DNA of 16,431 nt from NCBI GenBank assembly GCA_021841795.1, contig JAKCDN010000017.1, positions 1-16,431 on the forward strand, written 5' to 3'. The notes beneath the pieces were generated by a model. The model was not told where the DNA came from. It saw only the letters and a list, made by a program, of their open reading frames with translations, and made no database searches. Shown in pieces: positions 10,817 to 16,431 of this stretch. Both the position numbers and the translations under genes were made by a program. This stretch comes from Acidobacteriota bacterium (GTDB lineage Bacteria; Acidobacteriota; Terriglobia; Terriglobales; Acidobacteriaceae). The stretch's first letter is position 1. Each line of letters starts with the position of its first letter.

Positions 10817-10843
10817 TCATTGAATCCACTCCTCGGAGAGGCG

Positions 10844-11995
10844 ATGCAGGCGATCCTGGCGCTCGAAGACGGGCGCATCTTCCGCGGGCAAGGCCATGGA
10901 CACCCCGGCGAATGCAGGGGCGAAGTGGTTTTTAATACTTCCCTAACTGGTTACCAGGAAATTGCGACCGATCCGTCCTATGCAGGCCAGATCGTCGTCC
11001 TGACCAACCCACAAATCGGCAACTACGGCACCAACCATGCCGACAATGAAGCCGCAAAGCCCTACATTGAGGGCCTCATCGTACGTGAGTTCTCGGCCAT
11101 CAGCTCCAACTGGCGGTCCGAGCAGGTCACCGATGAGTACATGGAGCGGTATTCGGTCCCGGTCCTGGCCGAGATCGATACCCGTGCGCTTGTGCGTCAT
11201 CTGCGCACCAAGGGCGTCATGCGCGGTGTCATCTCCACCGCCACCTCCGACATCGACGCTCTGGTGGAGAAAGCCCGTAATGTCCGCAAGATGGACGGGA
11301 CGGATCTGGCCAAAGTCGTCTCCACCAGGACCAGCTACGACTTTGACGCCTCGGACCCACGCAACCAGGCCGGCGATCCGCTGCTGGCCGATGGCTTCCT
11401 CCACAAGCCCCACTCAGACCGGAAAATACTGAATGTAGTAGCTTATGATTTCGGTATTAAGCAAAACATATTGCGCATGTTAGCCCGCGAGAACTGCCGC
11501 GTCAAAGTGGTCCCGGCCGAAACCACCGCGGACCAGGTGCTTGCGCTCAAGCCGGACGGCGTCTTCCTCTCGAACGGCCCCGGCGACCCCGAGCCCGTGG
11601 ACTACGCTGTCCGCGCCATCCGGCAGATGATCGGCCGTGTGCCCATCTTCGGGATCTGTCTGGGACACCAGCTCACAGGCTTGGCGCTGGGCGGCCGCAC
11701 CTACAAGCTCAAGTTCGGACATCATGGCGGTAACCATCCCGTTCGCAATAACTTAACCGGGAAAGTCGAGATCACGGCGCACAACCACAACTTCGCCGTC
11801 GATCCCGATTCGATCAACGCCAATGAAGTGGAGCTGACGCACGTCGACCTGAACGACCAGACCCTCGAGGGTCTCCGTCACAAGTCCTTGCCCCTCTTCA
11901 GCGTCCAGTACCACCCCGAAGCCGCCCCCGGCCCTCACGACTCCCACTACCTCTTCCGCGACTTCCGCAAAATGATGGAGGAGTGGAAGGGATGA
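10844..11995 (+). CDS. carA: Carbamoyl-phosphate synthase small subunit (glutaminase)
   Basis: CarA hydrolyses glutamine and channels ammonia to CarB, which makes carbamoyl phosphate for arginine and pyrimidine synthesis. 383 residues from ATG 10844 ([17 protein letters not shown]), against 382 in E. coli. GGAGAGG just upstream supports this start over the in-frame TTG at 10820. The N-terminal half has the CarA segments [19 protein letters not shown] and [13 protein letters not shown]. The C-terminal half is a class I glutamine amidotransferase with GICLGHQL (nucleophile Cys272) and [14 protein letters not shown] (His357, Glu359), matching E. coli Cys269, His353 and Glu355. It appears intact. 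Its stop TGA lies inside the ATGA that starts the GIY-YIG gene, so carB is not its immediate neighbour. Confidence 0.97.
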
Positions 11996-12603
11996 GCGGC
12001 CCTTCTCAATCCAACGGGCAATTGGTTTGGCAGGTGTTATTGTCCCCGAAAAAGATCAAAAAATGGGCGGAGAGTCGGAAGGCACCGGTTGAGGTACGGA
12101 AAGTAAAGTCAAAAATCGATTATGCCGCCTCCATGCCGGGTGTATACAGGTTCATTTTTCCGGACGATCACTCTTACTACATAGGGGAGGCACAACACCT
12201 TGGCACAAGACTGCACTGTCACATATGCCCAAATGCAGAAAGGCAATCCGAAGACACTGCGAAGAATCGAACAAAAAGGCGCGTAAGCGACGCGATAAAG
12301 AATTCGATCGGCAAATGTTCTCTCGAATATCTGACTATCGACGGCACTCTCGCAATTTGCGGACTAACACTTGATCAGAATAGCTTTGGCGATCCCTTTG
12401 CCCGACTTCTCCTCGAGAACTTGGCTATATTGCAGGCTGAAAAAACTGAGAAGACGTGGCGCTCGCTGAATCGGAAGGTTCCTGCAGCAATACCTCAAAG
12501 CACAAAGGATCTCGCCGGCCCGGCCGCACTGGCAGGGAATCTGATAAAGCCTGGTCCAGGCGGAGCATTGATTGATCGAGGTGGGTTTAAGACGATGCTT
12601 TGA
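11992..12603 (+). CDS. GIY-YIG-fold protein overlapping carA
   Basis: A 203-residue protein from ATG 11992, whose ATGA overlaps the carA stop; GGAG and AAGGG lie just upstream. It shows a GIY-YIG-type signature: PGVYRF (49-54), [18 protein letters not shown] (61-78, with Arg73 and His75/77), and a later [21 protein letters not shown] (140-160). Glu142 is the probable metal ligand and Asn160 matches the usual closing Asn. The N-terminal 45 residues are Lys-rich; the 40 residues after the domain are Pro/Gly-rich. GIY-YIG domains are nicking or double-strand nucleases in homing endonucleases, UvrC, restriction enzymes and Slx1-like proteins; which role applies here is unknown. Base composition is clearly less GC-rich than carA and carB, suggesting recent acquisition. 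Its stop codon is part of the left REP arm. Confidence 0.68.
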
Positions 12604-12675
12604 AAGGGCACGGCTTTAGCCGTGCCGCAAAACGACCACGATGATCGGGGCTTTAGCCCCTGAGGGATGTTTTTG
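12599..12675 (+). repeat. Left REP pair of the RAYT element
   Basis: Contains two perfect hairpins: GGCACGGCT-TT-AGCCGTGCC (12607-12626, 9-bp stem) and GGGGCT-TT-AGCCCC (12647-12660, 6-bp stem). They are separated by 20 bases and followed by TGAGGGATGTTTTTGA. The first three bases after TTT's start supply the upstream gene's stop (TGA at 12601), and the ATG of the transposase (12667) lies in the GGGATG motif. Confidence 0.85.
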
Positions 12676-13209
12676 AAACCCGCACGCGAGCACGCAACGA
12701 ATAACGCGCAAACCTACTTTGTCACGTCCGATACGTGGGAACGGCGAGCGCTTTTTCAGAATGAAGCGTGGGCGCGGTTGTTCTTCAGGAACCTTCTGGC
12801 ACATCGCGATGATGCTTATCTCTTGCACGAATTCGTTCTCATGCCAGATCATTTCCATTTGCTCATCACTCCTTCGATTGCGTTGGAACGTGCGGCTCAA
12901 CTCATCAAAGGCGGATTCTCGTATCAGGCAAAAAAGGAACTCGGATCGAACGCTGAAATCTGGCGGCGCGGTTTTTCCGATCATCGCATTCGCAACTCCG
13001 AGGATTACCACAAGCACGTTCATTACATTCACCTGAACCCGGTTAAGAGGGGCCTTTGCCAGGGCCCGTGCGAGTACAAATACTCGTCCGCGTATCCCGG
13101 TTGGAAGCTTGACCCCATCCCCCAGGGGCTAAAGCCCCGAGACATTTACGAATCCCCTATCGGCACGGCTGAAGCAGTGCCCTTTCAATACACCACCGCC
13201 AAGATTTAG
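12667..13209 (+). CDS. REP-associated tyrosine transposase (RAYT, Y1/IS200-like)
   Basis: A 180-residue transposase of the RAYT family (TnpA_REP), single-strand HUH enzymes that act on REP hairpins. After FVTSDTWERRALFQNEAW come LMPDHFHLLITPS with the HUH pair His62/His64, and AAQLIKGGFSYQAKKELG. IWRRGFSDHRIRNSEDY, then HVHYIHLNPVKRGL hold the likely catalytic Tyr120. The length fits family members. ATG 12667 lies inside the left REP arm with no Shine-Dalgarno. The C-terminal 30 residues (PIPQGLKPRDIYESPIG and on) are encoded by the right REP arm. All catalytic residues are present, so it may be functional. It reads in the same direction as carAB and ends 15 bases before the carB ATG. Confidence 0.9.
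   Translation: MFLKPAREHATNNAQTYFVTSDTWERRALFQNEAWARLFFRNLLAHRDDAYLLHEFVLMPDHFHLLITPSIALERAAQLIKGGFSYQAKKELGSNAEIWRRGFSDHRIRNSEDYHKHVHYIHLNPVKRGLCQGPCEYKYSSAYPGWKLDPIPQGLKPRDIYESPIGTAEAVPFQYTTAKI
13112..13188 (-). repeat. Right REP pair of the RAYT element (inverted)
   Basis: As plus strand it reads ACCCCATCCCCCAGGGGCTA, then hairpin GGGGCT-AA-AGCCCC (13125-13138), a 23-base spacer, hairpin GGCACGGCT-GA-AGCAGTGCC with one mismatch (13162-13181), and TTTCAA. It is the inverted counterpart of the left arm and overlaps the 3' end of the transposase gene. Confidence 0.82.
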
Positions 13210-13224
13210 GAAGCACAGAAGACC

Positions 13225-16431
<3,207 letters not shown>

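Follow-up and report, generated by a model that had tools for sequence, protein, structure and literature searches.

Minimal mobile elements were defined for Neisseria, an example being pheS and pheT, which enclose a type II restriction-modification (RM) system (PMC3898611, PMC3082526). Chromosomal hotspots show rapid gene turnover between core genes, many of them without recognizable mobile elements, and new genes rarely integrate within operons (PMC5635113). Between carA and carB, encoding the subunits of carbamoyl-phosphate synthase, Xanthomonas citri carries a frame with a one-base overlap with the end of carA, for which reverse transcription PCR showed co-transcription; carA-orf-carB is reported for Pseudomonas aeruginosa too, with a dissimilar frame (PMC4619228). 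REP-associated tyrosine transposases (RAYTs; REP, repetitive extragenic palindrome) are flanked by inverted REPs, their orthologues retain genomic position (PMC2817692), and they are described as single-copy and vertically inherited (PMC8049555). Here we analysed a stretch of 16,431 nucleotides from an Acidobacteriota bacterium (hereafter the window), in which a GIY-YIG-type gene and a RAYT unit lie between carA and carB. The window is the whole of contig C283 of a draft genome of 2.85 Mb (380 contigs, 71% complete).

Based on the comparison with relatives, we propose that the carA-carB junction of Acidobacteriaceae is a long-lived slot for accessory genes (cargo), resembling a minimal mobile element, within the carAB pair (probability roughly 0.7). 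The junction looks like a repeatedly re-used landing place in an operon rather than a fresh accident. As in minimal mobile elements, two conserved genes enclose whole-gene cassettes that differ from genome to genome and include RM systems. However, the slot extends over more than one species and genus of Acidobacteriaceae, with a RAYT as long-term resident and cargo that often starts on the carA stop, and incorporation solely by homologous recombination at the flanks, part of the definition of a minimal mobile element, is a candidate route here. Rapid turnover between core genes is shared with the hotspots, but the two genes here form an operon in other bacteria. The carA-orf-carB arrangements of P. 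aeruginosa and X. citri are described with one frame each, whereas the slot takes several interchangeable cassettes, nucleases and a RAYT unit. The window RAYT differs from the described ones in lying within a biosynthetic gene pair, in having its right-hand REPs inside its own frame and in the few cognate REPs of its draft host. Among the matches listed in a literature search, none described such a carA-carB slot for Acidobacteriota, though this does not prove that no description exists; as far as the literature was searched, the Acidobacteriota slot, its place-bound cargo, its entry point at an ATGA and its resident RAYT are new. In Neisseria gonorrhoeae the carA-carB interval is reportedly variable, according to older literature.

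Layout and variability of the interval

In the window, carA (small subunit; 10820..11995, on the forward strand like all features below; TIGR01368, 497.5 bits) is separated by 1229 bp from carB (large subunit; 13225..16431; PRK05294, 1639.7 bits over model positions 1-1039 of 1058), which is open at the contig end. Both genes appear intact. The carA stop overlaps the start of the cargo gene as ATGA (11992..11995), and this gene (11992..12603) encodes a predicted GIY-YIG-type nuclease of a small family. It is followed by a RAYT/REP unit of 589 bp between inverted repeats (12600..13188), whose RAYT frame (12667..13209) leaves a spacer of 15 nt before the carB start (13210..13224). The GC content is 0.60 in carA, 0.50 in the GIY-YIG gene, 0.54 in the RAYT unit and 0.63 in carB. 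The first-pass annotation had described a gap of about 1.2 kb, a GIY-YIG gene overlapping the carA stop, a self-contained RAYT/REP unit of about 590 bp reading in the carA direction, inserted parts less GC-rich than carAB and two intact operon genes, and this description was borne out, with the unit ending just before carB. Its further view that the operon was opened by insertion is unsupported for the RAYT, as the interval is variable in the genus and beyond and the RAYT is an old positional resident. The listed carA frame begins at TTG 10820, and ATG 10844, with GGAGAG before it, is a possible true start (10820-10846).

The interval was compared in 40 stretches fetched from among 60 relatives and in at least 80 named loci from a scan of a species-genome collection (loci are numbered L, genomes G). 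Removal of exact duplicates reduced 119 intervals to 108, in which near-duplicates may persist (L068 and L148 are one locus); many genomes are draft metagenome-assembled genomes, and several contigs end within the interval. carA was present in all 60 relatives, and the interval is bordered by carA and carB both within the genus and outside it, except in G032, where a hairpin after carA is followed by unrelated frames with no carB within the 3.3 kb fetched (L049). Complete intervals numbered 100, with 66 of at least 400 bp and 31 of at most 200 bp. Taking a carA identity of at least 79% as genus level, 35 complete intervals had gaps of 88 to 1761 bp, 25 of them of at least 400 bp. The values for L148 (5782 bp) and L153 (a negative gap) are doubtful as carA-carB gaps. 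The first-pass annotation had considered that the same interval with conserved spacing in all close relatives would mean an ancient, fixed arrangement; this held only by half, since the interval is enlarged in many relatives but differs among them in what it contains and how long it is. The stretch upstream of the RAYT differs even between the window and its nearest relative. Neighbouring gene pairs in up to 16 loci, taken as a local control, had interquartile ranges of gap length of 23, 66, 121, 491 and 383 (the last downstream of carB, n = 9), compared with 1169 for carA-carB.

Cargo families and their turnover

Different whole-gene cassettes occupy the junction in different species. Recurrent cargo in the 108 intervals comprises RAYTs (18 loci), CarboxypepD_reg proteins (13), window-like GIY-YIG proteins (7), a pair of N6_N4_Mtase and XhoI (7), an unknown family of 204 aa (5) and a second GIY-YIG family (PF01541; 4). 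Single cases are a LEM-3-type GIY-YIG protein (L055), GT87 (L090), an Eco57I-type methylase (L120) and a cupin-like frame under the Pfam cut-off (L046). A Pfam scan of 30 representative cargo frames found no integrase, and the Y1 transposase of the RAYT was present. The RAYT matches within the intervals are all in the carA direction, as are the other recurrent families among the matches listed (at most 12 per family). The carA and carB genes of L038 and L044 are 92.6% and 92.5% identical, but the cassettes between them are unrelated, a 204-aa gene in L038 and an XhoI-type RM pair in L044; the similarity ends at the carA stop and restarts at the carB start.

To locate relatives of the cargo, we searched genomes of the order and examined some 1.5 kb to either side of each match for its neighbours. 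With the window RAYT alone as query, 26 of the 30 best matches, to which the count is confined, lie at carA/carB (window included; 25 of 29 besides it), across 12 genus codes in 278 genomes; four lie elsewhere (L256, L266, L269, L270). The queries for the other families were alignments of junction proteins, so that their place counts are partly built in. The GIY-YIG family gave 13 strong matches (E <= 1.3e-13) in 298 genomes, 11 of them beside carA and/or carB; seven of these 13 had themselves been part of the query alignment, and four of the six others are at the junction, the matches elsewhere (L161 and L162) having another neighbourhood in common. XhoI restriction endonucleases matched in 31 of 278 genomes, with 15 of 30 fetched loci beside carA and/or carB in 7 genus codes. 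All ten CarboxypepD_reg matches with E <= 2.5e-25 are at the junction (at least four are query rows), and the next 20 fetched loci contributed one. The 204-aa family was found in 5 of 278 genomes, four times at the junction (two query rows); its fifth member, in G008 (L247), adjoins lepB, with no carA in the stretch. The gap between lepB and carA is enlarged in a few relatives too, to 3746 bp in L082. A gene pair for an essential enzyme thus bears changing extra genes, restriction systems among them, in several genera (7 genus codes for XhoI-type systems, 12 for RAYTs), and the junction is a marked place to seek defence genes in soil Acidobacteriota.

Several recurrent families are DNA-cutting enzymes by family, and GIY-YIG proteins from the junction are only 18-32% identical to that of the window, yet four of six non-query matches are at the same place. 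Such enzymes (GIY-YIG, XhoI-type, RAYT) might cut alleles that lack them and be copied in by repair from carA and carB. This targeted homing is very unlikely, as cargo other than nucleases recurs (CarboxypepD_reg at 13 loci, the 204-aa family at 5), 2 of 13 GIY-YIG and 15 of 30 XhoI relatives lie elsewhere, and a recognition site, cleavage and a conversion tract would all have to be assumed. A related reading, with the junction as a site-specific refuge that has a gene pool of its own, is improbable too, if slightly less so: GIY-YIG genes, XhoI-type RM systems and RAYTs, living largely at the junction, would spread by cutting alleles without them and use the essential operon as homing platform and expression site. 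In this reading, any incoming gene, selfish or defensive, would be translated immediately thanks to the ATGA that overlaps the carA stop.

On a carAB tree of 35 tips, the type of the first cargo gene (assigned by hand; L049 unassigned) needs at least 19 changes. Turnover of cargo is frequent, and kinship is still visible because this number is the lowest among 200 shuffles of the cargo type (mean 22.8). Cassettes might be replaced through recombination at the conserved flanks, in the manner of a minimal mobile element, or be lost differentially from tandem cassettes. An old tandem array, of which lineages kept different subsets with no need for exchange between them, is a tentative alternative of some substance. 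It accords with intervals of several genes (204-aa family with CarboxypepD_reg in L057; RAYT with CarboxypepD_reg in L056 and L087), with one contig of G068 that has a CarboxypepD_reg match beside carA (L235) and a XhoI match beside carB (L192), with the XhoI endonuclease tree and with the lack of a donor tract in the single pair L038/L044. However, it would require many families simultaneously in the ancestor and codon-exact losses, as unrelated first genes start on the same ATGA, and the number of changes in cargo type also speaks against it.

Some of these observations weigh against the slot as we propose it. The observed 19 changes coincide with the minimum of the shuffles, and the RAYT subfamily needs 7 changes compared with a shuffled mean of 9.4 and a lowest value of 5. 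The carAB tree is quick and weak, with only 5 starred branches among 33. In the XhoI tree, sequences from one host genus mostly fall together (4 label changes, compared with 11.9 in shuffles), which indicates that some cassettes are mainly inherited. In the pair L038/L044, the DNA flanking the RM cassette of L044 resembles that of relatives with RM systems no more than that of the sister locus L038. Two nearby control pairs are variable as well, one upstream of lepB (interquartile range 491, 3 of 12 gaps over 1 kb) and one downstream of carB (383, n = 9).

The resident RAYT and the GIY-YIG gene

In the window, the slot would combine a fast-changing GIY-YIG gene with a RAYT and its REPs that have long resided beside carB. 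The RAYT (180 aa) scored 110.5 bits against NF047646 (cut-off 80) and 24.3 bits against PF01797 (cut-off 23), which identifies a Y1/IS200-like domain. Residues H62, H64 and Y120 are invariant in 13 RAYT sequences; we take the HxH motif and the tyrosine to be the catalytic residues. The unit is bounded by inverted repeats with 28-nt arms that are 93% complementary, inside which a further pair of 25-nt arms is 96% complementary, and the block common to the window and its nearest relative L034 covers 12599-13192 with 80.7% nucleotide identity. The gene is flanked by inverted REPs: a perfect palindrome of 20 nt (12607..12626) and GGGGCTTTAGCCCC (12647..12660) on the left, and GGGGCTAAAGCCCC (13125..13138) and a palindrome with one mismatch (13162..13181) on the right. 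All four REPs of the first-pass annotation are present, with the correction that the two right-hand ones sit within the RAYT frame, where their translation forms the C-terminus ...PQGLKP...GTAEAVPFQ. They likewise code the RAYT C-terminus in aligned relatives at 69% identity or more.

The age of the RAYT was judged from synonymous divergence (dS) and the ratio of nonsynonymous to synonymous change (omega). Between the window and L034, dS is 0.83 for the RAYT, 0.91 for carA and 0.94 for carB; it is 0.83 compared with 0.88 for carA against L035, and 1.11 compared with 1.00 for carB against L064. Omega of the RAYT is 0.07-0.16 in ten comparisons with the window. Because the nearest pairs show a dS close to those of carA and carB and omega is this low, the RAYT is, on sequence evidence, old and under purifying selection, and the gene before it changes faster. 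Its distribution, with 26 of the 30 best matches at the junction, together with the dS of the nearest pairs indicates positional orthology and vertical inheritance. Three points temper this. Only in the nearest pairs does the dS of the RAYT come close to those of carA and carB, and it is higher in most of the farther window pairs; its median over all pairs is 1.50, compared with 1.23 for carA and 1.09 for carB, much of it saturated; and RAYT and carB distances are uncorrelated in 11 loci (r -0.17, Mantel p 0.62), a result of little weight either way as identities vary little and dS is saturated. For G013, the RAYT is tied to its carA by inference only, as they stand on separate contigs (L037, L064).

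The first-pass annotation had pictured a carAB operon opened by a GIY-YIG gene and a RAYT element, which we took to mean that the two arrived separately and recently in an ordinary operon of this lineage. The lower GC content of both parts, the insertion-sequence-like inverted ends of the RAYT unit and the gap of only 88 bp in L036, of the same (unstarred) clade of the carAB tree, are in keeping with such a double insertion. However, RAYT relatives occupy the same place across 12 genus codes, the dS of the RAYT resembles that of host genes in the nearest pairs, and L034 shares the RAYT unit at 80.7% (carA 83.3%, carB 84.2%) but has no similar DNA over the GIY-YIG gene, where the proteins are 24% identical. 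The double insertion is therefore highly improbable as a whole and largely refuted for the RAYT, whose recent insertion we reject by its distribution across relatives and its dS; the window may have gained its GIY-YIG gene fairly recently.

The single GIY-YIG sequence of the window scored 20.5 bits against PF01541, under the curated cut-off of 22.6. Nevertheless, an alignment of 7 related proteins shows an invariant core of Y52, Y63, G65 and R73 (Y, YxG and R), and the family profile matches GIY-YIG domains of UvrC (best E 4e-5), with weaker matches to endonuclease II (0.0017) and I-TevI (0.022). In a structure search with a low-confidence model (predicted local distance difference test, 68), GIY-YIG domains rank first, with no match at E <= 0.001. 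The window cargo is thus predicted to be of GIY-YIG type, with the GIY...YIG core and the conserved arginine; DNA cleavage is a prediction only. A protein search found 44 proteins at E <= 1e-6, that of the window included. Annotation as a defence gene gave two PADLOC PDC-S14 matches only (E 0.005-0.008), which were not used.

The stop codon TGA of the GIY-YIG gene (12601-12603) falls in TTGAAAGGG bordering the REP unit, so that the edge of the RAYT unit terminates the cargo gene. At genus level, all 6 loci that have a window-like GIY-YIG gene and whose right side is known (one joined across a contig break, one with a shortened GIY-YIG frame) also contain a RAYT between carA and carB, compared with 7 of 28 other loci (Fisher p 0.0013, uncorrected for kinship, with states assigned by hand).

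Cognate REPs are not abundant in the host: the exact pattern GGCACGGCTNNAGCNGTGCC, without mismatches, has 3 forward places in the draft 2.85-Mb assembly (71% complete), 1 of them outside the locus. A related REP pattern occurs 0-147 times per genome across 59 genomes of the genus, the window's own included; G009 has 54 REPs, and its carA-carB gap gave no match to a RAYT. In L060 and L087 the junction is occupied by a second RAYT subfamily (43% identical), with different REPs (GTACGGGCTTTAGCCCGTAC) and with a GIY-YIG or CarboxypepD_reg gene downstream of it. In the window genome, a second Y1 transposase-like gene was matched in two pieces, one with internal stops (G000:C99:428-771).

Expression signals at the junction

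The carA stop overlaps as ATGA in 38 of 38 genus-level loci, and a frame of at least 80 aa starts from it in 23. In 17 of 24 loci at genus level and in 25 of 39 others, no more than 30 nt separate carB from the end of the nearest preceding frame of at least 80 aa; both sets of frames were counted mechanically, which lessens their support for the slot. This operon-like packing on both sides favours co-transcription. Of the recurrent cassettes, many begin on the ATGA and most leave about 30 nt or less before carB, and they would thus behave as extra operon genes, co-transcribed and, judging from the layout, translationally coupled with carA. The ATGA could offer an incoming gene a simple route to expression without harm to carB.

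A script called a terminator-like hairpin after carA in 21 intervals, out of 102 of sufficient length from all genera, compared with 0.67 expected from shuffles. It stands about 40 nt after carA in many genus-level loci; counting four T4 variants picked out by eye, the hairpins of 20 such loci can be aligned as a single one. Among 10 compact genus-level intervals below 200 bp it is present in 9 (6 by script, 3 with a T4 tail by eye). These hairpins would suit carA and carB being separate transcription units with permissive intergenic DNA between them. This is unlikely: the first 120 nt after carA hold no hairpin in the window and in other GIY-YIG, RM and 204-aa alleles starting on the carA stop, the cargo is usually packed close to carB, and the shortest compact alleles, L036 and L081, have about 24-26 nt from the T-run to carB as read by eye (39 and 41 if counted from the TTTT of the loop), which would leave little room for a promoter. 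In the compact alleles carB may be attenuated. With the hairpin in 9 of 10 compact alleles, whole-operon read-through may not be the ancestral state.

The first-pass annotation had held that transcription of carB must read through four REP hairpins or start anew. No strong promoter was seen directly before carB; one 9-of-12 match lies inside the RAYT frame (13056-13084), and both strands of 11900-13400 hold 2 promoter-like matches compared with 0.9 expected. REPs as strong terminators were rejected, as the GGCACGG palindromes are not followed by a long T-run; a single weak call of a terminator-like structure lies at 12645-12663, and 11900-13400 has 3 such calls on both strands compared with 1.5 expected. 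No Rfam family was found in 12 sources at gathering thresholds. Since the window allele is without the terminator-like hairpin of most compact alleles, its carB is probably reached by read-through from carA.

The alleles (empty with or without hairpin, with one or two cassettes) form a natural series for polarity, attenuation and subunit balance. Frames coupled through ATGA occur in 15 of 18 loci without the hairpin and in 8 of 20 with it (Fisher p 0.009, T4 variants counted, kinship uncorrected). It tells against the slot as an operon extension that 8 of the 23 coupled frames pass through the hairpin. CarboxypepD_reg frames from the carA ATGA read straight through it in L047, L050, L053, L054, L056, L059 and others; here the hairpin might be read as part of the CarboxypepD_reg N-terminus, and translation might relieve termination.

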